Positions 22,175 through 59,379 of a stretch of 64,000 nt of DNA are shown here, one piece after another; within the stretch, counting starts at the first letter, position 1, and every line of letters begins with the position of its first letter. The DNA comes from Ceratodon purpureus (taxonomy: Eukaryota > Streptophyta > Bryopsida > Pseudoditrichales > Ditrichaceae), in contig CM026424.1 in the NCBI GenBank assembly GCA_014871385.1, forward strand, positions 7,059,320-7,123,319. Reading direction: 5' to 3'. The notes beneath the pieces are model-generated. The model was not told the origin of the DNA. It saw only the letters and a program-made list of their open reading frames with translations, and ran no database searches. The position numbers and the translations under genes are program-made.

Positions 22175-22400
22175 CTATGCTGTTATTGAAGTTCTAGAGT
22201 GATTCAACAACTTTAGCTGGCTCCAAAACACGCACAACTTCGTTGAAGCAGAAGCTGGAGGCGTGCATGAAAGTATCGACTTTGTAATCCATCTCACAAA
22301 AAAATCGGAAAATGTAGTACACATGCTTGCGATACTTCCATTGGCCTTTCTTCCCAAGAGTTTCCAATGTCATCTTCAGGAAGTCCGAGCAAGTACATTT
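22175..22400 (-). pseudogene. Element 1 transposase, C-terminal SWIM fragment
   Basis: Read on the minus strand, a piece resembling KHVYYIF followed by FMHASS and FNEVV corresponds to the C-terminus of the element 3 transposase (KHLYYIF, IHAPSL, FNEVK). It lacks the first zinc-ligand pair in a clean frame and is decayed. Element 2 keeps a homologous remnant at about 31600-31760. Confidence 0.65.
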
Positions 22401-23860: not shown

Positions 23861-23862
23861 GT

Positions 23863-24642: not shown

Positions 24643-24743
24643 CTACAGGAATTAAAGATCTGTAAATTACCATTGATGTTTGCAAAAGTCAAGGAAGAGA
24701 GGATTCAGCAAAGCAATGAGGTAAGTAATTCTATACAGCTTAC

Positions 24744-25062
24744 CAACTGCATAGAGCCGCCCCATTGCCTATATTGGAAGTGCCAAAACGCCAATCAGCC
24801 GTTTAATAAACACCTTCGTTCTTCTGTTGTAGCTCCAGAAGATAGCCACCATCCACGAATAACATTGTACTTAGCCTCGGCTTCCTCTTGAGTCTTCGCG
24901 TCCTTCCATCCCTTGCACATAGCAATGTGTTGATCCTGGAATCCAGGAAGAATGTCTCTCGACGTCTATTGCTGAAGGCACTTTGTCCAATGAAACAAAC
25001 ATGTGCGCTCCCCGTCATCCATGCATACGTAAGGATCTCCACTACCAATTTGCTGCAAGAAT
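24744..25062 (-). pseudogene. Element 1 transposase, fragment of the catalytic exon
   Basis: The minus-strand reading contains ERTCLFHWTKCLQQ and, further on, IRGWWLSSGATT, matching ERTCQFHWATSLRKH and IRAWWTSSGATT of element 3. The donor site at 24743-24742 follows the same residue as in element 3. At least one in-frame stop is present and everything N-terminal to this block is absent, so no active transposase is encoded. Confidence 0.75.
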
Positions 25063-25224
25063 TAAAACAATAAATTCAAAAGTCAGCTTTTCCTCATCCG
25101 TCATTGGATCCAATAGAGCCTCAAGGACATCTTATTCACCTCAAAAAATCAAAAAAAGGTCACAAACTTTGACCTCGTAAGGCGGAGGCAGCAGCCTCCA
25201 TGCTGCTGAAACTCAAAATATTAG

Positions 25225-25690
25225 GGGAAAACCTTGATTAATTTCATTTTTTGCTGCTATTAATGCTGCTTACTGGGGCACCTTTTCAAAATTTATGGAG
25301 TGATTTCCCCCCCTAAATCCATGTCTCGGATCCGAGAGGGGAGGTGGGACTCTTTTTTTTTGCTGTTTTTTTTTTAATTTTATGTAGGGCCCCTTGAAGG
25401 GCCACTAATTAATTTTATTTTTTGCTGTTATTAAAGGTGCCCAATGGGGAACCTTTCTGAAATTTATGGAATTGCTGCCCACCCCAAATCCTTGTTTCGG
25501 ATTTGAGAGGGGGGGTGGAAGTCCTCTTTTTTTGTTGTTTTTTTTAAATTTTGGTTGGGCCCCTTAAGGGACCACAGTGCTTTTTATTCAATGAGTGTTG
25601 TTCAGTCTGGTCATGTTGAATTTATTTTGAGCAGTTTTTTAAACTTTGATAATTTGTTGCCCCTTGAAAGGAATGTCTCGGATTTGACAG
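25225..25690 (+). repeat. Tandem ~170-bp units with TCTCGGATCCGAGA dyads in element 1
   Basis: Two and a partial third copy of a unit containing a TTTTTTGCTG(C/T)TATTA block, a GGATC/T dyad and a GGGCCCCTT(A/G)A block follow each other. The dyad is perfect (14 bp) at 25324-25337 and degenerate near 25490 and 25672. The units lie directly 5' of the methyltransferase-like exons, as in elements 2 and 3. Confidence 0.65.
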
Positions 25691-25890
25691 GGGGCTGAGA
25701 GGCGTTTTATTCTTTAATATTTTAAGACTTTATGTTTGCTTGTCTTGGTTTTGAGTGTATGTTTGTTCTATATTTCTATATTTTTATGTCTAAAAGGACT
25801 ACTAATCTTATGGTTATACGTCAGTATGATAATAACGATGTGTCTCTTTTGTTGTAGGTTTTACGCCATTTTGTATTTACCAGTCGAAGC

Positions 25891-28120
25891 CCGAAATGAC
25901 TCCTGAAAAACTACAGCTAATTGCTAGTGCCAGAGTGTCTGCTAAGCACAAAGAGAAGTGATTGAGGTGGTGGAACATGAGCAAATTGAGTCAGCAAGAA
26001 TATAATTTCCCACCCACGCCTGCCTCGGACAATAATCTTCGTGTCAAGATAGACCAAGTTGCCTTCTTGGTAGGGGTAAATCTTTTTCTAATCATCCATT
26101 TTTAATCCTTGTCGTTAACATGGAGCTTGAGTCAACTTATGATTTCAATGTAATTGACTGTTTTATGCCTATCTTATGTGGGAGTTAGAGGATGAAGCAG
26201 TCGCTTGATTCAATGAGATAGTGGAAGAGGATGAAATTGTAATTCAAACGGAGGGCCTAAACGTATCCATTAACCATATTGGAGCTTGAATTGCTTCTCA
26301 TTCAATTACGTTGTGGGGAAAGGCCGTTAAGGATTTCTTCCCTAAGGTTGGAATGTTCATGAAGAAGTTGCCATTCCTGCAGCAAGCAGGAGCTGAAAAT
26401 GCCATGAACCGGGCGATTCTAAGGTACTTTTGGAGAGAGTTCGTAGTCAAGGGTGCAATTGATAAAAAAGACATCCTTATCCGCTTCAATAAATCGGTGG
26501 ATGTTTCAAGCAGTGAATGTATTTTCACTGAGTACCAGAGGAAACAGTTTGGAAGGCCACATTATTACAGTGTCTGTGGTATCTTGAGATGAAGGTGAAC
26601 GAGGGATATCCAGGGGAGGAAAGGAATCTAAGAATTAATTGTGAGCAACAAATGAAATAGAATGAGTTTGAGCACATTGTCCTCCCCGATTCCCCTACTT
26701 TGGATGTTGGTGGTGAAGATGAATTTTAGAAGAAAGAAAGGCAAAAGAAGGTCGCGAAGAGGACAAAGATGGAGGCGCGATTGAAGGTCAAGGAAGATAA
26801 GAAGAAGGAGAAGGAGGTGGAGCTTAATAAAAAGAAGGAGGTCTCGGCCCGCAACAAGGAGTTGGCTAAGTTGGTGGCAAAGGAGGGTTTGAATTGAAGC
26901 TTCTTTCTCTTCCTGGAATCTCTCTTTTGGGCAGTAGCATGCCATTGACCTTGACTCGATTGATGTCTTAGGTACATCTTTCAGTTGCGCATGTTCCTTC
27001 TCAAACTGTTTACACCATTCCCTGCACCCAAGTGGAAAATGTACACTATGGAGTGGAGGTCATCAATGACAACATCAAAGGAATTTTGGAGTTATTCAAT
27101 GGTATCACCGGCGAGGACAAGCCTGTGATTTGGTCAAAGATTCAGGAGTGGATTAAGGCTCACCAGAGGAACAAGATTCGTCGCTCGAGGGGAGATGAGG
27201 ATGATATGGTAATGGATCTCATTCTATTTTATGTGCCAGAGGATTTACTGTTTCCGGGCCTTAGCCTTTTTGGAGAAACTCCTCTATGGAATCGCCACCC
27301 CAAAAGACCTGTAGCCGGGGTGGAGGGGAAGTTCGAGTCCGACTGGATTCGGAATTTGCTTCAAACTTTCTTAAGGATAATGGAGCGGACATTGTCTTTT
27401 ATCCCGATTCAAAGTTTATTTCGAACGAGCTTCTCTCTTGGGCAGATTGGGCAGCCTTTCAGGAGAAGAGGAGGTGGTTTGCAATCAATGGGCTTCCATT
27501 GACTGTACTAGATAAACCTCACTTGACTCACAAGTGCTTTATGGTGAAGTGTTTTGTCTAGAAAGAGAACGCTCGCGAAGGAAAAGCAGCATCAAGTTTT
27601 GTTTTCTATAATAGGCTAAAACAAGCTGCTAAGGGCATCATGTTGTCAACCAATGGTCATGTCACAAACTTCATAAGTTTGAATTCCCTTACTCTTGAAT
27701 CAGAGAATCGCAAACCGTTTAGAAGAGCTCGTGAGAAGTCTCTGAATCTTCTCGAGGCTCTTGTGGACCTTTGCATTGTGGAGAACGATATTGTAATGGA
27801 CCTCACTGCATCCACATGTAAATTCCATATTTTCTAACCTAAATGTAGTTGGTTCTATTTGTTTTCAATATTTCTACGATTTCTAAATCTTTATTCAATT
27901 GTCATGTGCTTCCAATCGTGCTTGCAAAAGCATCAACCGACATGTCATCACTTTTGAAGATGACAATGTCTTGTACAAAGAGGTACTACTGCCGCTCATT
28001 CCACAACCCGATGAAGTCCAATTTGAGCAGGCCACTTTACCTCTTCCGAAGAATAAGCGCCGCTTGGAAGATGACGATGAACCTGAGAAGAAGATAGCCC
28101 CCAAGCGCTCTTGTAAGTAA
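25891..28120 (+). pseudogene. Element 1 methyltransferase-like gene, decayed
   Basis: Exon-like blocks follow the order seen in element 3: MTPEKLQLIASARVSAKHKEK near 25900, a block with ITLWGKAVKDFF, ILRYFWREFVVKGA and FTEYQRKQF at 26200-26580, a lysine-rich linker at 26730-26890, the catalytic-like part from about 27030 (DLILFYVPEDLLFPG, the counterpart of motif IV), REKSLNLLEALVDLC with DIVMDLTAST near 27730-27815 (counterpart of motif I), and after an intron RACKSINRHVITFEDD at about 27920. Several stops and frame changes interrupt it. The intron inside the motif I loop is at the same place as in element 3. Confidence 0.75.
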
Positions 28121-28149
28121 GTCTTTACTATCAGTCAAGATTGTTTATA

Positions 28150-28395
28150 GGACCTGAGGACCGAACCGTCCGACCGATCCGCATGTCCGTCCGTTAAGGG
28201 TCATGTCCGGTCCGTTTTTGGTCAACTCACGGTTGACCGTCCCAATCTTGCATATATTAAAGATATATACCTATTAATTTTTTTCTAGCGGACCGCTATG
28301 TCCGATAAATGTCGAGGACCGACCGGTCCGTCCGTCTGAAGTGCCGTCCGGTCCGCCAGATTTGGCCTATGTCCGTCCGTTATGACAACCGTACT
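28150..28395. mobile_element. GC-rich insertion with GGTCCG repeats
   Basis: A ~245-bp GC-rich patch sits in the AT-rich 3' part of element 1. It is dense in GTCCG, GGTCCG and CGGACC words on both strands and contains a GGTCAAC/GTTGACC hairpin near 28216-28237. It looks like a nested small element, but no clean ends or target duplication could be fixed. Confidence 0.4.
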
Positions 28396-28429
28396 ATCAG
28401 TTTTTGGTGTTTACAGTTAATTTGTATTT

Positions 28430-28801
28430 TTGAAATACTATTTTCTAGATACCTTTTATTCCTCTTACTTCAGACCAGGGCCAAAAGCGTTGAAGTCCCA
28501 AGGACTTGTGTTAAGGTATCCAAGCAAGATAAGAAGTCTAATCCGTCCTTTCGAGCTTCCTTACCACGTAGAGAACCTTACACACGCAATGGCGGCGGCT
28601 CCTTTACCGCCATCTTTTCCAAAGCATCGTAGACCTAATCGTGACGCAGAGCAGTATTTTGAGCTATTTGCAGAAGTAGATAATGTGGTACTATCTGATG
28701 GCAGTGATTGTGAGCACATGAGCATTGAGTCAACTAGTAATGACAATGACTTCGAGCATGAGTACATTGAGATTTCTACTTATGAGAGTTCATGTACTTG
28801 A
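28430..28801 (+). other. Open frame at the 3' end of element 1, unassigned
   Basis: A frame of ~120 codons ends at 28801 and has an acidic C-terminal half with a GSDCEH and EYIEIS segment. By position it could be the last exon of the element 1 methyltransferase-like gene, but similarity to the element 3 last exon is not visible. Confidence 0.3.
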
Positions 28802-29245
28802 TTTATTCTATTATTCAAAAGTGTGTGACTTTTTGATACATTAATCTATTTCCGTTTCTTATACTTGATTCTTATTTGGATACGCTTGAAATATGACTCT
28901 TCATGTACTAAGTTTAAATTCATGATATTGGACTTTGTTTATAGTATAGGTGTCGTAAGAAATCGTTTTCAACAATGACTTCTAATTTTAAGTATTCAAT
29001 TATCATGTAATAATTATAAAACTTGATCTAAATGACCTGCACGGAAATATGGTATGTGCATCATATCTAATGGAAATAATTGTGTATTATCCTCGAAATA
29101 TATTATAAAAAAACCACGGTCATAGGGCTCCCTTGTTGATTTAAAGCACATTTTAATGGAAAAAAGTTCCAAAATTATTGAAATTTAACGCTCGCGAGTC
29201 GCCGCTCACCGCTCACTCCTCACCGCTCACAAGATAGCATTCCTG

Positions 29246-30933: not shown

Positions 30934-31599
30934 CAGAGACGCTATTTTGTGAGCGGTGAGCAGTGAGCGGTGAGCGGTGAGCACAAAAGTTTTTTTCAAA
31001 AAAAAGTTTGAATTTTTTTTACAAAAATGAAATCTTTTCACCCAATTCTATCAAAAACCATAATCTTAAAACTCTTTCTTCGGAGACATGATTAAATAAT
31101 AAATGACACCTATTACCGTGGAAGGTTAATAAATTTGACTATTTTAAAAAAAAATCCCAAAAAAGGAAAAACGAAAAAAATTGCTAAATTTATTTCAAAA
31201 GAAGAAATGGGATAAAAACCAAAACTAGATGGGAAAAAAACTCTTACGCAAGGCCTTTTTGGATTCACAAAGAGAGTATTCTTTTATATCCACTTTTGAA
31301 AATAAAATTCCACAAATATATAACATTGAAAGGTGGATCCGACAATCGATTACATGTGGTTTTAAAATTACAATTTTTGTTTTTAATATACCTATTTATG
31401 ATTTACTATAGAATATTATATAAATGAAGGGGCTTAGTAGATATGATCTTCATTTATAGAAGGTAAGTTCAAATACATACTAAGCATAAATTTAAATTAA
31501 ATCTGTTAGGAGAAAATATGAGTCACAATGTAAAAACTTCTATAGCAATTGCAATTAGTTCCAAAGAAACATCCAAAGGAATCTATCAAGTGTAGTAAG

Positions 31600-31760
31600 T
31601 TCTAAAAATGCATAACTTTGTTGAAACCAAGTCGATGAAAGTATCCACTTTGTAATCCATCTTTTAGGGATATAAAAAAATCTAGTAAACGTGTTTGCAG
31701 TACTTTTCTTGTCCTATCTTTCCAAGGATTTATAATATCATCTTCATGAAATTTTAGAAT
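31600..31760 (-). pseudogene. Element 2 transposase, C-terminal remnant
   Basis: At DNA level this matches 22240-22400 of element 1 (shared words such as GAAAGTATC, ACTTTGTAATCCATCT, ATCATCTTCA). It therefore corresponds to the SWIM end of the transposase. The frame is not open. Confidence 0.6.
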
Positions 31761-31948
31761 GTACATTGCGGTTCATTGATTATAGTAATGGAGTACACCT
31801 TCCCCTTTCCACCATCTATAGAAATAACATATCTATAAATACAACATAGTATGAATTTTAAAATTATCATACAACAATTGTTTAAACCCCTGAAGAAAGA
31901 TTTCTAAAAACATGTGACAAGTATTATTTCCCAAAACAAATGATCTTG

Positions 31949-33589
31949 TAATTTTCCATAAAAACTATCAAATAATACTCAAAATTAAACCACTTGATGG
32001 AACTCTTGAATCTCAAAGACCCATAAAAGGATGTGTCTTTCCAATGAAAAGTAGATTCAAAGCATACAAAGTGACGTAGGAATCCAAAAGAGGTTTAACA
32101 ATCACATGTTTATTGAATTTTGAGTTAAGTAAAAATAGGCATTTGACTTGAAAGGGATTAAAACGCATAAAAGTTCTTGAAAGTTAGAAAAGATAAATGT
32201 GGCCTTCACACCTCAAAGGGATCCATAATGTATTACCTTTTAAAAATTATTCAACAAAAAAGGTATTTTAACTATGTTGATACTCTGACAATGTTGTTTT
32301 GAATTCTTCAAATTGGCACTACACATGGAGATTTTCTCCAAATATTTGATGTAATACATCGTTGGAAAGCCCTCGACAAGAGCTTTCCAAAAACATACAA
32401 CAAGCCATATTTCAAAGAAAAAAAAAATCTCGTCATTTTCCAAGTCGAAGCTTGGGGGCACCTCTCGGATCTGAGAGGAGAATCTTACATATATTCTGTT
32501 TTTGAACTTCAAACTGTGAGTAAAAATTGCAACCACGCACTCAAAAAAGCAAAAAAAAAATACTTGGCCAAGGCACCTCTCGGATCCGAGGGATGGTTCG
32601 GAGATGCTTTCTGCCTTCACTTTAAACTAAAAAAGCAGAGAAATCTGAGCATCCAACATTGAGCTGGAGCTCACATGGAGCAAAAAAGCGAGTGAAAGTC
32701 GAAGCTTGGGGGCACCTCTCGGATCCGAGAGATGGATTGGGGGTGCCTCTTGCATTCACTTTTTTTGACAACTCGCATGGAAAATGACGAGATTCTTTTT
32801 TTTCTTGGAAATATGGCTTGTTGCATGTTTTTGGAAAGCTCTTGTCGAGGGCTTTCCAACGGTGTATTACATCAAATATTTGGAGAAAATCTCCATGTGT
32901 AGTGCCAATTTGAAGAATTCAAATCAGCATTGTCAGAATATCAGCATAGTTGAGAAATTTATAATGGAGTTATACTATAATATTTTCATGGTAGAGCATA
33001 AAAAGCGGGAAAATATTTGGACCAAAGATTCTCCTCTCGGATCCGAGAGCACCCTAAGGTGGGTGGGATTTTGACACTTTTTTTGACAATTGGCATGGAA
33101 AATGACGAGATTTTTTTTTTCTTTGAAATATGGCTTGTTGTATGTTTTTGGAAAGCTCTTGTCGAGGGCTTTCCAACGATGTATTACATCAAATATTTGG
33201 AGAAAATCTCCATGTGTAGTGCCAATTTGAAGAATTCAAAACAACATTGTCAGAGTATCAACATAGTTAAAATACCTTTTTTGTTGAATAATTTTTAAAA
33301 GGTAATACATTATGGATCCCTTTGAGGTGTGAAGGCCACATTTATCTTTTCTAACTTTCAAGAACTTTTATGCGTTTTAATCCCTTTCAAGTCAGATGCC
33401 TATTTTTACTTAACTCAAAATTCAATAAACATGTGATTGTTAAACCTCTTTTGGATTCTTACGTCACTTTGTATGCTTTAAATCTACTTTTCATTGGAAA
33501 GACACATCCTTTTATGGGTCTTTGAGATTCAAGAGTTCCATCAAGTGGTTTAATTTTGAGTATTATTTAATAATTTTTATGGAAAATTA
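31949..33589. repeat. Inverted repeat inside element 2 with a third partial copy
   Basis: Arms of ~495 bp (31949-32442 and 33094-33589) pair outside-in with a nearly constant register. A third, partial copy in the right-arm orientation lies at about 32775-32950 inside the spacer. Each copy contains the hairpin word TTGGAAAGC...GCTTTCCAA. Dyads CTCTCGGATCCGAGAG flank the copies: near-perfect at 32462-32477 and 32577-32592, and perfect at 32716-32731 and 33034-33049. Confidence 0.85.
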
Positions 33590-34117
33590 AGCAAACTCAT
33601 GTTTTATTGTTAAAACTCAAGTGCTCGAGTTGAGCTGTGCGTTTGCTTGTTCGACTTTGCTACTTGCAACGAACATGTAGCGCTTTCTGTTTTTTTGTTT
33701 AAACACCTTTTGTGGAGTATCGAACTGGTTCCTTCGGATCGAAGATGAGAATCTTCTTATGATTCTTATAATGTCAAAGATGATGTTTGTAAGGTAGTTG
33801 GATTTGAGGTTGTTTGTGTTGGAGGGCCTTTTCGGAGTTCTCATATCTTGAGTGATTATAAGAGAGTCTTTACCGTTGGGCCTGTACGATCTTTGAATAA
33901 TCAGCTAAGAGCTTTGCATGTGTTAGAGTATATTTTCTACTGCGTATATGCATTTTCAGTTTTAAATTGTTTTTTGTCCAGTCTCCCTTATATTGTTAAT
34001 GCATGGTTTTTTTTTATTGTACTTCTACTTTAACAAGATTATATGATATGATATAAAGTTATTCTAAGATGATGCTTGACTTGTTTGCATATCATCCGTC
34101 ACTTTGACATTTTTCAG

Positions 34118-34818
34118 CCGAAGCGTGAAATGACCTCTGAAAAATTGCAGCTTTTTGCAACTGCCAAGGTTTTTGCCAAGTACAAAGAGAGATGGCTAAA
34201 GTGGTGGAACATGAGCAAAGAGAGTCGCCTGGAGTATAACCGTCCTCCATCACCAACTTCTGATTCAGTTCTCCGGGTTTGGATTGATCAAGTTGCCTTT
34301 TGGGCTGGGGTATGTATTCAAATCTTTTGGCTGAAATTGTTGAATTCATTCCATGTCTTCTACCGGTTAGAGAAACAATATATTTGTTTAAAGTAAAATA
34401 TGCACTTATAGAAATTGTCATTGTTTGTTACCGCAGTTAGAGGAGGAGGCTTTCAATTGTTATGCCAAGATTGTAGAGGAGGACATCATAGTGTTGAAGA
34501 CACATGATTTACCAAATCCTGTAGAGTGCATTGGCTCTTGGATTGAGGCTCATTCCATCACTTTGTGGGGGAAAGTCTTTAGGAATTTTTTCCTAAGGCT
34601 ACCACTTTTATCAAGAAGGAGCCATTTCTCAACCAGGCTGGTGTTGAGAATGCTATGAAGCAGGCTATCTTGAGGTATTTCTGGAGGAAGTTGGTTGTCA
34701 AGGGTGCATTTGACAAGAACGATATTCCACAGCGATTTAAGAAGTGAGTGGATGTCTCTAGCAGTAATGTATTTTTACAGATTATTAGAGAAATCATTTT
34801 GGAGTTCCTCACCTCCAT
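34118..34818 (+). pseudogene. Element 2 methyltransferase-like gene, 5' exons only
   Basis: The first exon-like block (34118-34309; acceptor TTTTCAG, donor GTATGT) encodes a peptide with MTSEKLQLFATAK, WLKWWNMSKESR and IDQVAFWAG. A second block from 34437 (acceptor CCGCAG) has LEEEAFNCYAK, SITLWGKVFRNFF and, after a frame change, AILRYFWRKLVVKGA. Both match elements 1 and 3. The catalytic part is absent because the element is deleted up to its right end. Confidence 0.75.
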
Positions 34819-35032
34819 TGGATATGAATCGGGTGTAAATTTCTACATTGATCAATTTAGAAGCCATTATCTTTTGAAAAAAAACCTTTAACCACCTTCC
34901 ACGGCCATAGGTCCCATGTATGCCATGTCATGCAAAATCATCTCAAAATATTCAAATAATAGTCAAAATTTTAAAAATTTAGTGCTCACCGCTCACCGCT
35001 CACTGCTCACCGCTCACAAGATAGCATTCCTG

Positions 35033-40050: not shown

Positions 40051-40884
40051 CCATGTGCAAGTATACCAAAACTTGACTCCTAAGTGACCACAATCATTTT
40101 TCACCAAAAACACTCAAAAATTTTCATTTTAAAAGCAACAATGAACCAATCAAAACTAAAGTTTTTTTTGCATCTTTAACCCTGAAACGTCATAGCAAGC
40201 CCCACGGGCTTGGTTTAAAAGAATAGTTGGAGACACGTATGATTTTCATTTCTCAACCAAATCAAGTGAGACTTGTTGTTTTGGAAAGCTATTGAAAAAG
40301 TGATGTAGATTCCAAATTTTCGCCTCATTTGAGAGATTGTGGAATCATTGGTAAGCAATCAAAGTTATCAAATTGAACAAGTTTTGAGGTTGGGCTAGCT
40401 AAAGTTCAGTAGTGCCGCACTGCTACAGTGCTACAATGCTAGCTGGCAGTATACTGGAAAGCCGTTTGTGAAGAAATTTATTGAAATAAAAAAATTAGAT
40501 TCTTTCTAGGCTTCCCACCTAGGACCCAAATTGTGGTTTAAGAATTAATAATTAAACCTTCTCTAAGACTTCTAGAAGATCATGCATATATTTTTTTATT
40601 AATTTTGACCACACAAATTAGAAGATTACAAAATTTGACTTAAAACACACTATAAATTCTATCCTTTCTAAATATTAAAAAATACTACAAAATCATAGAA
40701 GACCAAGTAATAATGACTCTTTTTTTCTCGATATTAGGCATTATCATACTTAATAATATTTTATATATTTTTTAAATCGACAAATTTGTACTACTAATGT
40801 CAAAAGCTTAAATATAAATATATGATAAGACAGCGATGCTACTGTGGCAGCGGCGAGCAGTGAGCAGTGAGCGGTGAGCAGCCA

Positions 40885-44109: not shown

Positions 44110-47100
44110 CTAGACATTGATAAGCGAAAGAAGGCCACTCTGAAAAATAGCCTTGACCTCGTTAAAGCTGAGGCTTGGAGCATGGATGTAGGAGTCCTGG
44201 TGAATATCAAGGTTGCATATAGCATTGAAGATGTAATAGAGATGCTTGCAAGGCACCCAGGGAGGTCGTTTTCCCAGCGACTTGATGGACATTTCCTTGA
44301 AATTGGGGCAGGTGCAGGCGGGCTCTGGGCCAATTGTTATTTTGTAGACGTTGGACTCCGACACGGTCTCAGAGACAACGCTGATGATGCACCCGAAACC
44401 TGGGTTAGGTATGAGTGTGACTGATTGGATTCGAATGGTGAGTAGAGTAGATGAGGCCCAGTTGTTCTCGTGCTCTGTTCGTGGCACCCGGTTACAACGC
44501 CGAATCTTGAATCCCCCTCGCACCGTGGGATATATTCCTGGAGCAGGGGGTACACTCCACTGCGAAAGGTCAAACCGTGGCCGCTGTGGGAGAGATGCAC
44601 CGTCGTGAAAAACTTGGTGAGCGGCTAATTCTTGGCGTTGAGGGAGTCTGAAACCGGCTGCCTCGAGGTCAAGTATCTCCCTCTTTGAAAGGCGAGAGCC
44701 ACGCTTGACAGGCCAGATAAGCGGGGGAGGGGGCATGCTGGAGACCCAGTTCCGCTTAGTACCCATGACGCATCTCTGGATGTCGTCGTTACAGAAGCAG
44801 AACTGCATCCATTTTTGCTGATCCTTCCTGACGTCGGTGAAGATGCCCCAGTAGCATGGCACAATTGTAGCCTTCTTTCCCCGTATGAGCCTCGCCGTGC
44901 AGTTCTTATTCGTCCTCGCCTGTTGAGCAAAACACGCCTTCGCCGATCCCTTTGGAAGCCTGACAAGGTGCCACATACTCTCGTCCACATCCGTCTCCTC
45001 CACAGCGGTTACGTGATGACGACTCCTGTTCTCGTCCGGGCTTGAGACTGGCGATGGGGGTGCCGCTTGGACCCTTTGTGGAGGTGAATCCTCTGGTTCA
45101 GGATCAGGCTCCTTGCGTGCTCGCGTATTCCTAGTGCTCAGACGAGGTTGAGAAAAATTTACCTTGTCCGGCCTGTGGGAGTCATATTCGGATCCGATCG
45201 GTTGATTCAGCTTCCGTTTCGTGGACCCAAAGAGCTCGTCGCCTTCGCAATGTGGCTCACGGGAGAGCAACTGTGGAGCGTCATGGAAGTGTTCAGTGGC
45301 ATCGGCAAGGCGCTTGGGAATCCCTGATTTTTGAGCTCGCCGTAAACGGAGTTCGGCTTTGCAAGGTCCCTTACCCGGGGTCTCACCTCGCAGGTAGGCG
45401 CTATAGTTAGTGCATTGCATGAAGCCCCTGACATAATCGTCCACCGTGGCAAAGTAGATGTTGTCGCCACGATTGCCCGACATCTGAAGCCATATATTGT
45501 GCACAGTCTCCGAGAGGTTGCAAGAGGGCATCTCGTCCTTCTCGGCGTCCGTAAGGTCCTGCAATCAAAGAAATTGCTGATTCAATCAATTCTACGTCAA
45601 ATAAGTGTATTAAGTGACTGGATAAAAAAAGAGATGTTGTACTCACCAATTGCATGAAGCCTCCCCACTGCCGATATCTAAAGTGCCAAAATACGAGCCA
45701 GAGTTCGAGGTCACGAAGACCGGAGGCAGTAGTAGCGCCTGAGGAGGTCCACCATGCTCGGATCGCGTGGAAACGAATGTCGGCTTCTTCCATGTTCTTT
45801 GCATCACGATACTGCTTGCAAAGCACGTAATGCTGCCTCTGCAAATCTGATCCGATGATGTGAGCCTCAGTGTGCTTCCTAAGTGAGGTTGCCCAATGAA
45901 ACTGGCACGTACGCTCACGGTCTGGCATTGGAACCGTCGCGTCGCCACTTCCATAGATCTTCCGCACACAGTTCCAGTTGGCCTGGGCGCTGTCCGCCAT
46001 GAAGCCCTTGAAGTTGACTTTGTCATAGCCATATTTTGCCATTATTCCGTTCAGGAATTGCCACATCACGGTCTGGGCCCTCACGTCTTCTGACTGCATA
46101 TCACAAATGGCGATAGTCATGACCCGGCAATACTGAGAGTCATAGACATGACATGCCATGGTTGTCCAACCCTTTGTGCGCTTGACGTGATCAAACATAA
46201 TCCAGGAATCCTGGAGATCCCCGCCAGGTTGCATTCGCTTTACAAGGTCCACTCCCGACCCGGGACCTTTCTCGGACATCTTAAAGATAAAAACCTTATC
46301 CCCTTCAGAACCCTGCCCGGGAAATTTATTGTCATGAATAAACTCCCACTTGCTGCAGCCCCGCAAGGCAGCGATGCCGTCGATAATGCCCAGGTTACCG
46401 ATCCCCCTGAAGGTCGTCACGGCGTTCTTAAGCCCGGGCTTGCTGAGTGTATAATACTTCTTGAACACCTCATCCAACTCTTCGTCCGAAAGAATGGTCC
46501 GCTTCTCCCCCGGTGCAGTTAGGAGGTACTCACTCAGAAAATCCTTACTCGCCTCTAGAGCTAGGGCCGATGTCTTGGCGTACGGAGTGTTCTGCATATG
46601 CAACTCGAGTAGGTCGAGAACCTTCTGCTTGGTCTCCCTGCACTCAACGTATCCAACAGGGTGGTTATGTGTACCGATATGGATACACGCACGTGACATC
46701 GCAGGATTCCCAAGCACGTAGTACATCCTTGCAGGGCACGTGGCGATGCATTCCGGGGGATATCTGCAGATTTTGCATACAAGTGTGGACTTCGGAGGAG
46801 GATCACAACCAACGACAAACGGGGTAAGCGTGACACCGTCCCACTCAGACTCGTTCACCTCCATCTTGCGTTTGTCTCCTCGAAGCAAGAAGTCGCACTT
46901 CTCGTTCTGGCATTTCAGATGACCTGCACATACAGAATATCTGAAAGTCAGTCCTTGGTTGTTTGTGATGTTGGTCGTCATGGTCTTGCACCATGGATGT
47001 GCGTCGTACTTCTTATCCATCCCTGCCATCGACTTTGCGCTCGCTGCAGTGCCGCGATCAGGGATTGGTGGAAGCTCGAAGAGCACGTCCCCGTTAAACT

Positions 47101-47671
47101 CGGTCGGTAGAAATGGCACCCGATCCCTCTGAAGTGCTCTAAAGTCCAACCTCGACAATGCATTCCTCGCTCCGGGTTTGGAAAAAAGACGCATAAGGCC
47201 GGGGATGACACTGAAGCTACCCGATACTGGTTTCTGCGAAGAACTAGGCTGAGCTTGGGACGGCGTAACGAAATCATCCTTATCTGACTCACTTAGGACA
47301 TGAATGCGTTGAGCTACGGGTTGTTTCACAGGAGGATTGGGCTCGGTTCCAACATCGACAGTCGATGTCATGGATCGGCCCGGTGTTAATATCTCCGTGG
47401 ATGCAGCCCAACGATCCGCAGTGAGTCCCCTCACGACATATCTTCTAGCCTCAAGAAGCCACTCCCTACCATCCTTAGCTCTAATCGGCATCCGATATAC
47501 AGTTTGAATCAGTTCGCCGTCGTCGTTGACAATTTCTTCCTCAAGATGGACGGACTCAAGAACAAGGTTGTATCTCACGCTCAACAAGATAGCGGTAATC
47601 GACCCTACACCCTCCGAATTACATGGGACACAGAATGGAACATCGTGACCTTCAGCACGTATACGAGCCAT
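44110..47671 (-). CDS. MULE-like transposase with SWIM zinc finger, two exons
   Basis: This should catalyse cut-and-paste movement of the family. Exon 1 is 47671-45647 and exon 2 is 45558-44110, joined at a GTGAGT donor and TTGCAG acceptor in phase 0, giving 1,157 residues. Near residues 230-350 a Cys/His cluster ends in HNHPVG, as in WRKY/FLYWCH-type zinc fingers of Mutator-like transposases. The DDE-like core has Asp 494 (FDHVKRTKGW), Asp 560 (MADSAQANW) and the CxxH pair C589/H592 (CQFHW) typical of MULEs; the third acidic residue is not assigned. A SWIM finger lies at C1090-x-C1092-x19-C1112-x-H1114. The start is the ATG at 47671 (MARIRAEG); the frame is open slightly further upstream without another ATG. 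It is divergent from the ParB-methyltransferase gene, with 441 bp between them. Both exons are open, so the copy could be functional. The intron position is shared with element 1. Confidence 0.85.
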
Positions 47672-48112
47672 CTCTACGGGTAAGATGTGCACAGAGTGGA
47701 AGAGCCGAAGTGAAGCAGGAAGGCTGTTGCATTGGGTGGTTTAAGAGTTTTGTAACCAAGTACGTGATAGTTCACCATTGCAGCTTGGTTCAAGACCAGT
47801 ATCATGTCCCAGAATATAGTTGAACAGCTTTTATTTTGGGCACACAATCAGCATTAATGACTGACAGATTCAAAAATAAATCGTCTATGAGAAGAAACCG
47901 TCATGGCAAAGCCTATGACGCCCTATGGAACCTCAATTAATAGGCGAACTTAGAGCTCGGTGGGGACATTTAGCCTAAGTGCATCACACATTGGCCTTAG
48001 TCATTTTCAACATAGCACGGTTGAGGTTCATTTCTCTCTCAATGCATCAAGGATCTGATAAGAGTATGAGCCGGTTTTGTCTTCGAAGTAAGTTTTACGT
48101 TCACCGTCACAG
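47672..48112. promoter_or_regulatory. Bidirectional promoter region
   Basis: These 441 bp separate the divergent start codons of the transposase and the ParB-methyltransferase gene, so both promoters must lie here. No dyad of the CGGATCCG type and no unambiguous TATA box was seen. Confidence 0.5.
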
Positions 48113-51100
48113 ATGCCCAAGTCACATCGGAGTGGGGGGTTAGGCTCCCCCAGTGAAGAAACCCAGGAGAGATCAGGGAAGAAGCGCAGAAAGAGTAAGA
48201 CGGGGTTGCGCTTGACGGACAGGAAGTATCAGAGTCAGAGCAAGAGTCAAAGCAAGGTTGTTCGTTCAGTAAGCTCGATTCTCAGGGACTCGAGATCCAA
48301 GATTGAAGGGTGTCCGAGCGTCAACACTGGAGGATCGGCCACGAAAGTTAGCAGCAATCACTTCGTCGACGGGCAAATGACGGTGGCCGTCTCAAGGAGG
48401 GTGTTCAGCGATCTACACGCCAGTTCCATTCTTCAGCCGCGACATTCTGATGTAAGCTTGTCAGCACGATGTCTTGGTACGTTCTAGACGCAGCTGTAGC
48501 ATCATGATTGATCAGCGAGATTTTTGCTAGCCAGTGCCAGGTCGGGATCAAGTACTCGTAGGACTGGTTTGCGGCATCAGAATAGTGAGTGGTGTGATCG
48601 TCATGATAAGTGTTTTATGGTTTAATAGTTTGCCGTCGCAATTTTCATGGTACGCTGGGCGTAGAGGAGGGAGTGGTTGTTGTCATCATCCAACCGGGTT
48701 GAAGCCGGCCGCGGTGTGTACTAATGGCTTATGAGGGTTTTAAAAGTTTGTAGGTTCTTGGCATGCATCACAGTCATTGTCATACTTAACTTTGAGTAGG
48801 AAGTTGGTGCGGTCATCATTGTAGTTAGCTGTAGGAATTGATAGTTGTCGCGTTTAGGGTAGAGTGGGGGCCGCCGCGAGCAGGAAGTGTGGCTTAGAAG
48901 CTAATCGTGGAAAGGGTGTGAGCAAGAAGTGTGACTTAGAAGCCTCTCGAGGCAAGGGAGTGAGCACGCATAAATTGACAGACGGGAACCCTTGCTCTTC
49001 AGTTTCCTGAGGGTTGCGGTGTTGGAGGTCGGAGATGCAAGGAGGGGGTTTGGAGTGAGGTTCTTTGGTAGGTTAAGGGTATGCTGAAATGGTGTAAGTA
49101 TAGGTTTTGAGAGGGTCTGAGAGGGGCGGCTTCAGAGCACATCTCCATCTGGGTTGCCGTTGCAAGGTTTAGGTGGATAGTGCGAGGTCTGAATTATTGT
49201 GGCCGAGAAGGGTTTGTGGGTGTCAAGAGCGGCGTTTTTTCAAGGCTTTAATCATTGGGAGTGCACAACAACTAGTGACGGATTGCCGTATAATACGCAT
49301 TACATCTGTAAGTGTTGCTTAGGGTTTTTGTGACTTCTTAGGGTTTATGATGTTATGCTTCGCATTTGGGTGTATTTGTTGTGCTCTGAAATGCGGCCTT
49401 CTATTGACTTGCATGTAACGTGCCTCTACCTTGCAGGGCGCGATGAGCACTTCCCACGATATGGTAGACCCGGCCACAGAGGCAGTGAAGAGCGTGATAG
49501 ACGATATTCCTAGAGGTTCCTTCATGGACGAGGATATGGGTAGTTCGCAACCTCCCATCCGTAATGGCAGAGCCCCACCAAAAGTAAACTTTATGGGCTC
49601 CTTGCTCGAAGGAGATGATGAAGTGGGCAAGGCGGGCTTCTCGAGCGAGCAGCAGGAGGAGGGCTCGCGTGAGCAGCAGGAGGACGGCTCGCGTGAGCAG
49701 CAGGAGGATGGCTCGCGTGAGCAGCCGGAGGAGGACTGGTTTCAGCAAGAACCCAGCAAGGACAAGGACAGCAAGGAGGATGACGATCAGACCGAGGATC
49801 AGACCCAAGTTGGTGATGGCGAAGCCGGCGCTGATACTCTATTGAGCCTTGGTGGGCAGGTGGGAGAGATTGAACCTCCTCGAAAGCCTGTGAATGTTCG
49901 GCAAGCATTCCGTCAATTCAGGGAGGAGTTGAAGCCGGACCCATACGCTGCATTACTCAAAATGCGCCGCAGACCTCACCAATATTCAATGATCAAGATT
50001 CCCTTATGCCGGTTAATCCCATGTGATTTCGTGCGTCCAGCAATGCAGAGTGATGTACAGAAGTTGCAAGCTGAGTTCTTCAACGGCATAAGACCCGGGT
50101 CTGGGGCATTTTATGTTGCAGATACATCGCACACGGGGGACGTCGCAAGTGTCACCGAGGAGATGAAGTCAGGATGGTGTAATGCTTGGAAGGTGTTGAA
50201 CGCTGCGTTCGAGGATGAGATCAGGCAGCACAGGGAGACAAAAGATCTTACAGGAAAGATGTTTTATGTCTTCGATGGTAACCACCGCACAAGGGCATGG
50301 CGGGAGTTCATCGAAGTGGAATACCCAGATGATCTTGAATGGGCTAAAGCAAACGGAAGGCCGGACTGTATTCTGCTCGATGTGAAGGGAAGCCGTGAAG
50401 CTCTAGTGACAGCAATGCATGCCATCAACAAGTGAGTCCTAAACTGTGCAAGAGTATTGTGTTTTCTCCGGATGTTGATGTTGGATATAATAACATGGAA
50501 ATTTAGAATCTTTGATATTAAAGAAGTGTGTGTTGTATTCGACACAGGGCCAATGAGGATGCTTACGTCAAAGAAAGGCTGCCGCACACTCTACACAAGA
50601 TACAGACGTACGGGCAAATGTCTGTGGAGGAGCTGGAAAGGAGTGGAATTCTAACGCCGGATCTTCTGGCGCGCACGAAGAGTTCAACTAAGAAGTCGTG
50701 GCACTCGATGCCTCAAGAAGTATTTGTGACGTTTTTACACAGCGTAAGTGTTATAAGAAATCAGTGCTGTCAATTCGTAATTGGATGATTCAAGTCCCGA
50801 GATGTTAATGGCACGTGGACTGAAACAGGCAACATTGGCCCAAGTCGCAGAGGAGGCTTCTCAAATTTGGATCAACGAGCACCCTGGTGATGATTCAGGG
50901 CACGAGATGAGGGCAGCTGTGGACAAGGCCGTGAAGGAAGCCAAGGATAGGCTGCAAACAAAGTTCAACAGAGAGCAAGCCGTTGCAAATCCAGTCCATG
51001 GCAAGGGATTTCAAAACGAGGTAAATACTTTGGAGTTGATCAATTGGGTTATTCTTTGAATATAGGACGTTAAAATTCGTGGTGATGAGTGGAAATTGAT

Positions 51101-54100
51101 CTCAAAAATGGTCTGTCGGATTGTTCTCTAAATCTTTGGACGTTCGGATTCCGAGGGGATGTGCCCATTTAGTTCGTAGAAATGATCTGTCGGATTCTTA
51201 TGAGAAATTTAGGATGTATAATTTCCAAGGGGATGTGCCCATTGAGCTCCTTTAAAATGATCTGTCGGATTCTTGGAAGAAAATTCGGACGTTCATATTC
51301 CGAGGGGATGTGCCCATTAAGTTCGAAGAAATGATCTGTCAGATTCTTATGAGAAATTTAGGATGTATAATTTCCAAGGGGATGTGCCCATCGAGCTCCT
51401 TTAAAATGATCTGTCGGATTCTTGGAAGAAATTTCGGACGTTCAATTTCCGAGGGGATGTGCCCATTAAGTTCGTAGAAATGATCTGTCGGATTCTTATG
51501 AGAAATTTTTGATGTTCAATTTCCAAGGGGATGTGCCCATTGAGCTCCTTCAAAATGATCTGTCGGATTCTTGGAAGAAATTTCGGACGTTCAATTTCCG
51601 AGGGGATGTGCCCATTAGGTTCGTAGAAATGATCTGTCGGATTCTTATGAGAAATTTTTGATGTTCAATTTCCAAGGGGATGTGCCCATTGAGCTCCTTT
51701 AAAATGATCTGTCGGATTCTTGGAAGAAATTTCGGACGTTCAATTTCCGAGGGGATGTGCCCATTAAGTTCGTAGAAATGATCTGTCGGATTCTTATGAG
51801 AAATTTTTGATGTTCAATTTCCAAGGGGATGTGCCCATTGAGCTCCTTTAAAATGATCTGTCGGATTCTTGGAAGAAATTTCGGACGTTCGATTTCCGAG
51901 GGGATGTGCCCATTAAGTTCGTAGAAATGATCTGTCGGATTCTTATGAGAAATTTCGGACGTTCAAATTCCGAGGGGATGTGCCCAATGAGCTCGCGGAA
52001 ATTTTCTAAAAAATCCGACAGATCGATTTATAACACTCATGGTAGCAAGGTACCACAGAGATTTTACATACGTTTAGATGATTTGGATCAATTATTTGCA
52101 CTAAGATGTGTTTTTTTAGTAATTTTAAGGAAAATGTGCCTCAAAATGCGAAAAATACCGAAGTACCCTGGAATGTTTGAGTCGAGAAATCATCTTTAGA
52201 ATCCGACAGATGGTTTTTCTGTGTACATTTACCTAGGTACTCTGGGAAACTAGTCGCAAGAAATTATCTCTAGAATCCGACAGATGGTTTTCGAGTGTCA
52301 ATCATCTCAAGGTACCTTGTCAAGTTGGTGATAGCAAACAAGTTTAGAAATCCGACAGATGATTTTATTGTTTCCATTTACCTGGGTACTCTGGAATTTT
52401 TCTCCGAAGAAGTAATCTCTAAAATGTGTCAGATGATTTTAATGTGTCGATTACCGCAGGGTACTCTGTCAAGTTGGAGAATTTAGATTAGCTCTGAAAT
52501 CCGACATATGGTTTTGATTGTGTCAAATTACCTTGGTACTGTGGGAAGTAAGACAGTAGAAATAATCTCTGAAATTAGACTGTTGAATTCAATGTGGCCA
52601 ATTCCTCAAGGTACGTCAGGAAATTAGATATCGTAAACAATCTAAAACCTATGACAGATGGTTTATTTGTGTCAATCTACCTAGATACCTTGGAAACTTG
52701 GAGACATGAAATAATCTCAAAAATCCGACAGACGATATTGATGTGTCGACTTCCGCAAGGTACCTTGTCAAGTTGGCGATCAAAAATCATCTCTGAAATC
52801 GGACAGAGAATTATTTTGTGTTCACCTAGCTAGGTATTGTGGACTATATGACTGAAGAAATATTCTCTGAAATCCGTTTCATGATTTTTATGTTTCGAAT
52901 ACCCCAAGGTACCTCGGAAACTTAGCATTGATAAATCATCTGTCTCATCCGATAGATGAAATCTATATCGTATTCTTTACATGGTACTGTGTTGCATTCG
53001 TATGACAGATCAGCTGTTGGACCCTTTAGCGGTGATCTAACACACTTTCTATGAAAGAAAATGATGATTTTACATAGATAGTTAATGCTCTGTTATGAGG
53101 AAATTTGGTATTCGATGCAATGATGTCTCTCAGATTCTAATCTTCACTAGTCTGATTACTTGGGATGCTGTTGAGTTTCAGATCAAAAGACATTATGATC
53201 GGCACCAAACCAAGGTTGAGATGACCATCGACAAGCTCCAAGCAATTGCAACATCTGAGGTGTCGGCCAAAACAAAAGCGAAATGGCTGAGGTGGTAGAA
53301 CGGGTCGGCGAGTTCAAGGAAAACATTGAAGTTTCCACCATCACCTTGCTCAATTGAAGTGCTTAACCCCTGGATTACAAAAGCTGCATTTTAGGCAAAC
53401 GTAAGTGTATTTCATTATTTCTAGAACTCTGGGTTGTTACACTGATTCGAGGTTATAGCCGATGGCGTCCTCTTTAGTTATTTGTGTCTCACTCTTAAGT
53501 TGATGGTTTTGTATCAGTTGGAAGACGAAGTCGAGAAAGAGTGCCTCAACTGGTTGGCAACCAGTTCCGATTCAGAGGAAGACGTCAACTCGAAGCGCAC
53601 TCCTATGGCCGAGTACATCGAGAAGTGGCGTGTGCTCCTATGGGAGAAGGCATACTTGTCGTTCTTCACGGGAGCTAATGTGTATTCGAAGTCGCAACCA
53701 TTCAATTCCCAACCAGGGACTGACATGGCTTGGAAGCGATGTCTGTATCGGTACTTTAAGCGGGAGCTCATCCCAGCTGGTGTGGTAAAGAGTATACCAC
53801 CTCCGTGGTTCAGCTGGACGGAGACATCGAATTCCGAGTTCATCTTCACAACCAACCAGCGGAAGATGTTCAATTTGAACCATCTGATTGAGTGCTGCTG
53901 GTATATCGAGTGCCCAAAGTCATTTGTAACTGCTGAGGAGAAGGCTGTAAGGGAGATGTTTACCAAGAGGAAAGATGGGGATGACGACACCCATGATATT
54001 TCAGATGAAGCACTTCCTGCTCAGGATGCAGAGCCAGAACAGGATACACAAGTCGTTTCGACATCCACTGGTGCGGGGGATGCGAACACAAAGAAACGGA

Positions 54101-55679
54101 AGAGGGGAGCGAAGTCGGCATCGAAGGAGTCCCACCAGGAACCAGTGAAGAAGAGGAGCAGGGGGAAGAAGTCGGACCCAGCGACTGTTGAGCCGAATGG
54201 TGCGGAGAATGGGACATTCTCTCCAAGGATTGGACATGCTGAGAAGCCAGACGTCAGCGCACCTCAAGCAAGATGCCCTGTTCATGAGTTGATTCTGAAT
54301 GAATCAATAACTGAGTGGCAGAAGGCAAATCCTAGAATGAGGTTGAAAAGCATGCCAAAGGCTTTCAACGACATGGTCCAGTGGATTCGGAGCGTCACCC
54401 CTCAACGGGTCCGGATGAAGGACGGGAAGAGTGTTCGGGGGGGTGGATTGGCAGATCTCATTATCATTGATATTCCGGAGGGTCTACCGGTCCCTGGTAT
54501 ATCCGATGAGGACGAGATTCCAGATTGGAACAGCAGAGGCGACAATTACCTTGCAGCCGTCTTTGGCTTTGTTAAACTCGTTCTCCAAGACCAGGGGTGT
54601 GTGATCATTATCCATCCGGATGACAATGGCGAAATTGAGGACGAGATTCGTGATTTTCATCAAGTGGTTGAATTGAAGTCTGAGAGGTCGTGGACAGGCA
54701 TCAATAGATTGCTTCTTCGCTCCGCGAAAATAAGCGGCATGACAACATGCTTCTTTAAGGTGCAACTTCTTACATTATCCTCGAATAACAGCTTTGACTT
54801 CAGACCGACACCCGAGGATTACAAGAAAAAGAGCATCGACATCGTTGACCGTGATGTCATCCTAAATTGGGTTACGCTGGAGCAACAGACGATGCGCAAG
54901 GAGGTGCCATGGCGAGGAGCGAGGGAGAAAGACGTGCTGTTCATCGAGAGCTTAATCAGAGCCACCACCGACCCTGGTGACGTCGTCGTCGATATCGGCG
55001 CCGGAACGGGTAAGTCTCGTCGTTTTTTTACATGCGAGGTAACTTTGAACAAGGCCTTTTTTTTGGAATTCGAAACTACTAAAATCTAACAAAGAGGCAC
55101 TCAATTGTATCAGGTGCATCAATCAAAGCATGCCGGCAGTCAGGACGGAACATAGTCGCGCTTGAGGATGATCAGGAGCTGTATACAGAAGTCCTTAAGA
55201 AGATGGCCCTGCCGCCACTGCCTCTACCAAAGGCGGATGCATCTCATGTACCGATGAAGCCAATGATCGAAAAAGACGTGGTGGCCACTCCTAAGCCGGT
55301 GAATAAATTCATCGCCATGATGACCGAGGAAAGCGACGACGAGTAAGTGAGTATTCCAATGAACATTTTTTAACTGAGACATTTTGAATTGACATGGATT
55401 TTTGTACAATATGAATCTGTTTTTTGATACGGTTGTTGTCGCAGACCGCTAAGTCCGCGTTCCGGGGGGATAATTAACGAGTGCATCAAGAAGATTGCAC
55501 TATCACCTGATCTGCTGCGGCTTCCAGAGTATGCCGAGCTAGGGGCTCAATTTCAAGCTAATGTGGAGTCTCCCAGAATGAAAAAATTTACGCGTAGAAA
55601 ATACGATGGTCGAGTCCTAAACTTTGTGGATATTGAAGCCGAAGTTGTTACTCATAGCATTCTTGTTGATCCTGAGTAA
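48113..55679 (+). CDS. ParB-like domain fused to a DNA methyltransferase-like domain, eight exons
   Basis: Proposed exons are 48113-48451, 49437-50431, 50548-50743, 50829-51020, 53182-53400, 53518-55009, 55114-55342 and 55445-55679; every junction is GT-AG and phases agree, for about 1,298 codons. Exons 2-3 hold a ParB-type domain: KIPLCRLIP near its start and the DGNHRTRAW motif at about residue 393. Before it lies a tandem 8-residue EQQEDGSR repeat (49648-49740). Exon 6 has two basic nuclear-localisation-like stretches (KKRKRG, KKRSRGKK), then a methyltransferase fold in the order motif IV before motif I: ADLIIIDIPEGLPVPG (residue 965 on; 54469) and VVVDIGAGTGASIKACR with ALEDD after it (about 1136-1160), the layout of ParB-methyltransferase fusions known from phages. 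Motif IV reads DIPE where active enzymes have D/N-PP-Y/F/W. Exon 5 contains two in-frame TAG codons (53296, 53392) at positions where elements 1 and 2 have Trp; it is 219 bp and phase 0 on both sides, so skipping it keeps the frame. Exon joining across the array is inferred; two separate genes are possible. Confidence 0.7.
51090..53010. repeat. Phased 74-75 bp array with an orientation switch
   Basis: In the left half TCTGTCGGA starts at 51112, 51186, 51261, 51335, 51410, 51484, 51559, 51633, 51708, 51782, 51857 and 51931: strict alternation of 74 and 75 bp, i.e. a 149-bp dimer with alternating A and B subunits. The B subunit has TTGGAAGAAATTTCGGACG and both carry GGGGATGTGCCCATT. After 52000 the same motif appears inverted (TCCGACAGA and variants) at 52014, then 52202, 52276, 52351, 52425, 52500, 52574, 52650, 52724, 52799, 52873 and 52948, in the same period but with more diverged units containing GGTACC-like words. 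The array occupies the intron between the ParB-like and methyltransferase-like exons. Confidence 0.95.
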
Positions 55680-59048: not shown

Positions 59049-59334
59049 TCAATGAGTTGTTACAAAAGATGGCCCCATATACTCCTTGTTTAAAAATTTC
59101 ACTCATAAACATTGTATTAGATGCATATCTTTTATGAGCTAATTAATTATGCGGTTATTTTCTATGTTATCAAAGCTAGCATCTACCTTGCTTGATATAC
59201 ATTATGATATGAACACACTATTAGTAATAGATTGTATATATGAGTATGCTTGTTATTTCATCGATTTAATTTACTGTAAAAATATTAAAATGACTAAGCT
59301 ACAGATTTTTTGAATATTGGTATATAAAATATTC
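59049..59334. other. 3' region of the CTD-heptad gene
   Basis: AT-rich DNA up to the right inverted repeat of element 3; presumably 3' UTR and spacer. Confidence 0.4.
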
Positions 59335-59379
59335 TCTGCTCTTTGCTCACTGCTCACCGCTGCCACAGTAGCTTCGCTG

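Follow-up and report, generated by a model that had tools for sequence, protein, structure and literature searches.

A putative ParB-methylase-type gene with an intronic motif array in a plausibly Mutator-like transposon family of Ceratodon purpureus

Organization of the locus

The subject of this work is a stretch of 64,000 nucleotides of the Ceratodon purpureus genome (assembly GCA_014871385.1, contig CM026424.1, positions 7,059,320 to 7,123,319 of the forward strand), referred to below as the window, and in particular a transposon within it (copy 1) which carries, head-to-head with a transposase-like gene, a second gene whose predicted protein resembles a fusion of a ParB-like domain with a DNA methyltransferase (MTase) domain. 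Based on the sequence alone, an earlier reading (the sequence-only reading) had proposed that a phage-type modification enzyme was captured here by a Mutator-like transposon, where it might mark or read the DNA of the element. The ParB-methylase-like gene is real: seven of its exons (1 to 4 and 6 to 8, Table 1) can be joined across GT-AG junctions with compatible phases, as that reading had it, the exception being exon 5, which is interrupted by two in-frame stop codons. Exons 1, 3 and 4 are defined solely by their open frames, splice sites and phases (no relative was seen for exons 3 and 4, and no second copy of exon 1 was found within the window).

Table 1. Position, strand and basis of assignment of the features of the ParB-methylase-like gene, its intronic array and the surrounding element copies (window coordinates).
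Feature	Position	Strand	Basis
Exon 1, basic low-complexity N-terminus, 113 amino acids (weakest exon)	48113..48451	+	Open frame from ATG, GT donor, phase 0
Exon 2, ParB/Srx-like domain (probable), DGNHR (GxxR P-motif) at 50274-50288	49437..50431	+	Relatives P0003-P0005, conserved core
Exon 3, after ParB-like core	50548..50743	+	GT-AG, fitting phase
Exon 4, charged linker, phase 0 at end	50829..51020	+	GT-AG, fitting phase
149-bp tandem array in intron 4, ATCTGTCGGATT (0-1 mismatch) 12 times, 74-75 bp apart	51105..51994	+	Tandem Repeats Finder, 6.0 copies, 95% matches
Degenerate inverted continuation of array, ATCTGTCGGATT (0-1 mismatch) 6 times	52012..52989	-	Motif counts
Exon 5, in-frame TAG at 53296 and 53392, conserved ATG at codon 14	53182..53400	+	Homologues in both relic copies
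Exon 6, conserved module at the N-terminus, motif IV (DIPEG, 54469-54483) and, from 54991, the beginning of motif I (DIGAGTG)	53518..55009	+	P0001, P0002, PF01555
Exon 7, remainder of motif I and next strand	55114..55342	+	PF01555 score gain on splicing
Exon 8, C-terminus and stop	55445..55679	+	GT-AG, phase agrees with donor 55342
Transposase-like open reading frame, exon 1, N-terminus with Cys/His, core with C-x2-H (by eye)	45647..47740	-	Open frame, donor, homologous to relic copy 2
Transposase-like open reading frame, exon 2, SWIM-like CxC...CxH	44110..45558	-	Open frame, relic homology, splice site
Left terminal inverted repeat, copy 1 (47 bp)	40831..40877	+	87% complementary to 59333-59379
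Right terminal inverted repeat, copy 1	59333..59379	-	Pairs with 40831-40877
Relic copy 2, transposase pieces (-), methylase-gene exons 5-7 (+)	21743..29245		Flanking 10-bp duplication CTTCCATCTA
Relic copy 3, a transposase piece (-), methylase-gene exon 5 with a part of exon 6 (+)	30934..35032		Flanking 10-bp duplication GGCCCAAATC

The methylase domain

Profile comparisons indicate that a methylase-fold domain is almost certainly present. With exons 7 and 8 spliced on to exon 6 and the first ~250 residues omitted, the last 402 residues of the product match the Pfam family PF01555 (N6_N4_Mtase) with an E value of 1.2e-7 and 32.4 bits, against a gathering cut-off of 26.7; exon 6 alone (E 0.027) and exon 6 with intron read-through (E 0.0041) fall below the cut-off. 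Motif I is divided between exons 6 and 7 by an intron. The exon 6 region has two relatives out of 1521 candidates, P0001 (99% identical) and P0002 (28% identical over 97% of residues 280-505, and itself below the PF01555 gathering cut-off); relatives at 99% identity, here and below, may be this very locus or near-identical copies and do not count as independent. A methylase profile of three sequences was aligned by hhalign with seven phage ParB-MTases (L001, L003-L007 and L011) with a probability of 93% (E 3.3e-7), collinearly from motif IV to motif I and further, the score of 57.2 comparing with a maximum of 23.8 in column-shuffled templates (0 of 100 as high). Additionally, a 257-residue spliced core matched 840 phage records (E≤10; best listed E 7e-7), the best 15 of which are all annotated as methylase or methyltransferase. 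The order of the motifs is permuted (IV before I) and collinear with the phage enzymes, as had been claimed for exons 6 and 7.

The residues of motif IV, on the other hand, are not of the expected (S/D/N)PP(Y/F/W) type: the motif reads DIPEG in the window and P0001 and DVPEG in P0002, so that the catalytic tetrapeptide is altered in all three sequences covering the site (the first two being nearly identical), while the alignment gives DPPYG or DPPYN in the seven phage relatives. The block D(I/V)PEGLPVPGIS is kept even though P0002 is only 28% identical, and relic copy 2 has YVPED. The glycine-rich motif I, the S-adenosylmethionine-binding motif of the family, reads DIGAGTG in the window, DISASTG in P0002 (where the glycine-rich loop is eroded) and DLTASTC in relic copy 2. 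The bdelloid rotifer enzyme N4CMT loses its activity when the Ser and the Tyr of SPPY are both replaced by Ala (APPA) (PMC8885841). Given the altered motif IV, the effect of that change on N4CMT and the missing glycines of P0002, ordinary amino-methylation is unlikely, and the protein is likely to be something other than an ordinary amino-methylase; the conserved new motif IV could instead mean a changed activity.

The element and its relic copies

That the gene lies inside a transposon family is borne out by the inverted repeats, by the transposase-like open reading frame and by two relic copies (copies 2 and 3) in the window, both with inverted repeats at their ends and flanked by target duplications. 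The terminal repeats of copy 1 resemble those of copies 2 and 3, and in all three copies the transposase-like gene (minus strand) and the methylase gene (plus strand) stand head-to-head. The gene order expected of other copies was found in the two relics as regards transposase and methylase; the ParB exons were found in neither, and within the window occur only in copy 1. Taken by itself this absence would count against a fused gene, but we do not read it as evidence, since copy 2 has also lost the adjoining N-terminus of the transposase (the first 596 residues of the open reading frame) and a deletion explains the absence equally well.

It is plausible, from the features of the sequence, that the family is Mutator-like. 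The shared flanking strings are 12 bases long in copy 2 and 10 in copy 3, and can be read as 10 bp each if both elements start with CAG. In the transposase-like open reading frame there are what we take to be SWIM-like and C-x2-H (CxxH) signatures, seen by eye rather than by profile. Mutator-like elements have, like the family described here, inverted repeats, target duplications of 8-11 bp, a SWIM-type finger (in many groups) and extra genes (in some), although the transposase of the window, unlike theirs, is too divergent for Pfam; the word "methyltransferase" has no occurrence in the available main text of that survey (PMC6446971). The Mutator-like assignment of the sequence-only reading finds agreement in the 10-bp duplications of the two relics, and has against it that no profile of note was matched by the transposase-like gene in Pfam, PHROG or NCBIfam, nor any family by its spliced protein (1157 amino acids), and that copy 1 has no target duplication (no shared flanking string of at least 6 bases).

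The chances are about even that the window copy is dead DNA, decayed and with no present function, which would be compatible with a working family elsewhere. The two stops in exon 5, the missing target duplication of copy 1 and the relics elsewhere in the window all point to decay, whereas the seven open exons and the ParB-like core retained in relatives at 73-75% identity, which implies constraint in the family, point the other way.

Exon 5 and the question of one fused protein

Exon 4 ends at a GT donor in phase 0, exon 5 begins after an AG in phase 0 and is followed by GT, and homologues of exon 5 are present in relic copies 2 and 3, with an open frame in copy 3 and one stop in copy 2. In the window copy the two TAG codons interrupt the fused frame unless the exon is skipped, which would preserve the phase (the end of exon 4 and the start of exon 6 being both in phase 0). 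The proportions of synonymous (pS) and nonsynonymous (pN) differences, given in place of dN/dS because dS is saturated, are 0.76 and 0.44 for copies 1 and 2 (70 codons), 0.77 and 0.39 for copies 1 and 3 (71 codons) and 0.81 and 0.21 for copies 2 and 3 (73 codons). Since synonymous change is saturated and amino-acid change is not, the family once coded for exon 5, which is, judging from this pattern of substitution, a genuine exon of the element family. The window copy itself is probably damaged, its exon 5 stops making it improbable that it is intact.

From the phases and from exon 5, we consider it fairly probable that the element family encodes one fused protein. The competing view is that there are two separate genes, a ParB-like one whose end lies at the array or ahead of it, and a methylase-like one beginning in exon 5 or 6, with the array as intergenic regulatory DNA. 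To this view, which we regard as rather unlikely, belong the length of intron 4 (~2.2 kb), the relics that carry exon 5 onward without ParB, the fact that each database relative spans a single exon only, and the ATG present at codon 14 of exon 5 in all three copies, which would suit a separate gene too. It is opposed by the shared phase 0 of the exon 4 donor and the exon 5 acceptor, by residues upstream of the codon-14 ATG that are common to copies 1 and 3 (IxRHxDxxQxK), and by the phage homologues, in which both domains are joined. A query with the full-length fusion found nothing at E 1e-3 among the 8000 best-sharing candidates, a set from which length limits left out P0001. The conserved internal ATG of exon 5, together with one failed ParB profile test described below, lowered slightly the probability that we assign both to the fusion and to the ParB-like domain.

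The probable ParB-like domain

A ParB-like domain is probably present in exon 2, as suggested by a motif, by the order of its surroundings and by a weak similarity. The relatives of exon 2 (P0003-P0005, three of 871 candidates) are 99, 73 and 75% identical to it over a core, running from IPLCRL to AMHAINK, which is strongly conserved in all four sequences (one of them 99% identical to the window). GNHR is invariant in the four (two of them 99% identical), and agrees with the GxxR P motif described for the ParB/Srx (ParB-CTPase) fold (PMC12704722); the DGNHR motif had been placed on exons 2 and 3, and it does exist, wholly within exon 2. The only matches of the core (E≤10) among 50,697 phage records were three records, at E ~1, of what is one Gordonia phage ParB-MTase protein (at least 99% identity between them), with 20 of 49 residues identical in an alignment which spans GNH and YPDD..W. 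The ParB label of this phage protein derives from its N-terminal 150 residues, which resemble phage proteins with a ParB-like annotation, and Pfam names only its methylase part. In hhalign, the exon 2 core scored 24.6 against ten phage ParB regions, a value reached by none of 200 shuffles (mean 13.6, maximum 23.5).

Several results weigh against this assignment. No match to a ParB family was found in Pfam, PHROGs or NCBIfam (in Pfam, for any of the four members); the hhalign probability is low (5.6%, and 2.8 and 3.6% with other template sets); and when only three annotated phage ParB proteins served as templates, hhalign placed its best alignment (16 columns, probability 1.3%) outside the ParB domain. 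On these grounds, the resemblance might be false and exon 2 an element-specific domain unrelated to ParB, possibly joined to the methylase-like domain, a reading that we find unlikely. The silence of Pfam is uninformative, because an annotated phage ParB (L008), used as control, was also without a Pfam match up to E 10; in addition, GNHR agrees with the published GxxR, the flanking order agrees by eye, and the sole phage matches sit in a ParB-MTase. The phage-type ParB-methylase of the sequence-only reading is in this way upheld by profile for its methylase half (PF01555 above cut-off, hhalign 93%), and survives as a probable domain, with no ParB profile match, for the other half.

The motif array between exons 4 and 5

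The DNA between exons 4 and 5 is occupied by a tandem array and its degenerate inverted continuation, both built around the short motif ATCTGTCGGATT. Allowing one mismatch, this motif has 21 matches in the 64 kb, against 0.41 expected, 18 of which lie at 51111-52733 (12 on the plus strand at 51111-51941 and 6 on the minus strand at 52012-52733), with 13 of the 17 spacings in the array equal to 74-75 bp. The remaining three are one-mismatch sites at 41061, 57393 and 58678, none within a terminal repeat. In 12 units of the degenerate half, no 12-column window is better conserved than that of ATCTGTCGGATT, which ties with its neighbour shifted by one column; conservation is 0.83 there, against 0.68 in the other columns (the units were anchored on the period of the motif, which somewhat favours it).

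The array is a short motif in tandem repeats within the noncoding DNA of an element, as in VANC-type systems, and it lies in an intron of the gene for the presumed factor only if the fusion holds. In VANDAL21 of Arabidopsis, motif arrays lie upstream of VANA21 and within introns of both VANB21 and VANC21; VANC21 binds YAGTATTAY motifs, binding of the motif having been seen in vitro (PMC5735166). If the fusion is accepted, the geography is the same: an accessory gene, a large intron of that gene, tandem repeats and a short motif (PMC5735166, PMC10398659). Unlike in VANDAL21, the array of the window runs in two opposite orientations, and the likeness is one of layout.

A target motif common to the whole family is not supported by the counts of TCGGAT outside the array. 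In copy 1 these counts (7 and 4, with shuffle means of 5.5 and 3.6) show no enrichment, copy 2 shows hardly any (5, with a shuffle mean of 2.6; 24 of 200 shuffles reach 5), and the enrichment is clear, among the parts tested, only in copy 3 (9 against 0.9; 0 of 200 shuffles). A CGGAT core shared by all copies was accordingly dropped as a family-wide claim, the shuffles supporting it outside the array for copy 3 only.

Comparison with phage and eukaryotic methylases

Fusions with N6_N4-methylases are named as frequent in phages (PMC12704722). The phage ParB-MTases (such as Gordonia phage Stormageddon gp207 and Streptococcus phage Javan618) have, as proposed here, an N-terminal ParB-like domain and a C-terminal N6_N4_Mtase domain with motif IV before motif I; they share GNH with the window protein, and two of the ten aligned (Stormageddon gp207 and Marley1013 gp1) share its YPDD..W stretch. 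The window gene differs from them in being a plant gene with introns, and its protein in having an insertion of ~35-45 residues before GNHR (by eye), an extra conserved module in exons 5-6, and DxPE instead of DPPY in motif IV, the similarity in the ParB part being weak. Capture from a phage, as the sequence-only reading had proposed, was not shown. Scans of IMG/VR with patterns from both domains, and of GTDB with patterns from the methylase part, found no relative: none of the 36 (ParB) and 192 (methylase) pattern matches in IMG/VR and none of the 80 in GTDB was confirmed, all three being weak scans and the methylase patterns coming largely from the N-terminal module. Sequence searches of the PDB gave only matches taken as chance.

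Among eukaryotic examples, bdelloid N4CMT is likewise a permuted N6_N4_Mtase of bacterial type, clustering with phage enzymes, in a gene with introns; unlike the window protein, it has a chromodomain and an active SPPY, it is not described as transposon-encoded, and "ParB" does not occur in the part of the text available (PMC8885841). The DIRS1-like retrotransposons are also eukaryotic mobile elements with a methyltransferase domain, of unknown function there, and differ in being retrotransposons with a tyrosine recombinase and in having no ParB domain in the available passages (PMC3266345). The most common ParB-fold protein in eukaryotes is sulfiredoxin (PMC12704722). A ParB-methylase-bearing plant transposon was not found among the literature matches listed (mostly papers available without subscription). 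The parts are of known kinds, and it is their combination in a plant transposon that appears to be new; it would amount to a new way for phage-type genes to enter plant nuclei.

Proposed function

Our overall explanation, which is tentative and whose functional part comes from the sequence features above, is that a phage-type ParB-MTase has been put to new use as an element-specific factor for DNA binding or anti-silencing, one that is probably non-catalytic. According to it, a plant DNA transposon family, probably Mutator-like, would encode, head-to-head with its transposase, a protein with a ParB/Srx-like domain at its N-terminus and a permuted amino-methylase domain at its C-terminus, in the architecture of the phage ParB-MTases. 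The methylase domain would keep the signature of its fold and has lost the PPY part of the catalytic motif, which would make DNA binding likelier than methylation; the altered motif IV fits a DNA-binding role better than marking. The protein might recognise the ATCTGTCGGATT array (mostly 74-75 bp apart) in its own large intron, a possibility to which, from the layout, we give somewhat less than an even chance. Once bound, it could coat or open the chromatin of the element, in a VANC-like, element-specific anti-silencing or transposition-helper role; anti-silencing as such, argued by analogy, is a more doubtful proposal. More speculative again, and improbable as it stands, is a nucleotide-gated DNA clamp, in which the methylase-fold domain would read the arrayed motif and the ParB domain would load and spread, keeping host silencing off. 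If the protein does bind the array, an unrelated protein would have given rise to VANC-type anti-silencing, and one could then ask what such systems need; were the clamp true, it would be a second, unrelated invention of sequence-specific anti-silencing.

The protein might alternatively be an accessory factor of transposition, for which a mudrB-like helper is one model and a nicking enzyme another, with no role in silencing. The head-to-head arrangement with the transposase in all three copies would suit such a factor, and nicking of DNA has been reported for a ParB-methylase from Bacillus cereus (PMC5512222), but the motif array is internal, with only one-mismatch sites outside it and none of these within a terminal repeat, and we consider this alternative unlikely. 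Improbable as well is an active amino-methyltransferase that marks the DNA of the element, as the sequence-only reading had suggested and as for bdelloid N4CMT, among whose targets transposons are named (PMC8885841): the protein passes the PF01555 cut-off and the window copy has a glycine-rich DIGAGTG, but D(I/V)PE has replaced (S/D/N)PP(Y/F/W) in the window, P0001 and P0002, motif I of P0002 is DISASTG, and N4CMT is dead once Ser and Tyr of its SPPY are changed.

Other features of the window

Copy 1 was also considered as a clean 18.5-kb element, a candidate that was rejected, since a target duplication is missing and a promoter-like module turns up again past its right repeat. This module, similar to GTCGGATCCGTCAG (0-2 mismatches), occurs on the plus strand at 43561, 56328, 57389, 59478 and 60360, the last two lying outside the right repeat of copy 1. 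The five modules align loosely (mean column identity 53%), those at 57389 and 60360 are followed by TATA-like boxes, and their recurrence suggests co-regulated element genes. In the right part of copy 1, an open reading frame at 58617-59048 (+) contains repeats like those of the C-terminal domain of RNA polymerase II (YMPTSPV...; PF05001, E 0.002, 18.7 bits against a cut-off of 20.3), and a 96-bp tandem array at 57710-58366 (6.9 copies) is open in several frames. Relic copy 3 contains a 494-nt inverted repeat (31949-32442 and 33096-33589, 99% complementary), with CTCGGATCCGAGAG repeated nearby, and at 19608-19888 (-) two collinear pieces, one like the last part of methylase exon 6 (E 0.011) and one like exon 7 (E 0.8), are a possible fourth relic.

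Elsewhere in the window, an ALMT gene at 7412-8224 (PF11744, 3.6e-29) supports a plant genome. A 2,029-nt inverted duplication (11383-13411 and 14515-16543, reported as 100% complementary), with a small open reading frame whose product looks secreted by eye, is either a recent duplication or an assembly artefact. An open reading frame of 355 amino acids at 62921-63988 (+) has no significant family match (PF05938 weakly, E 0.036) and has a basic tail which, by eye, is like a nuclear signal.

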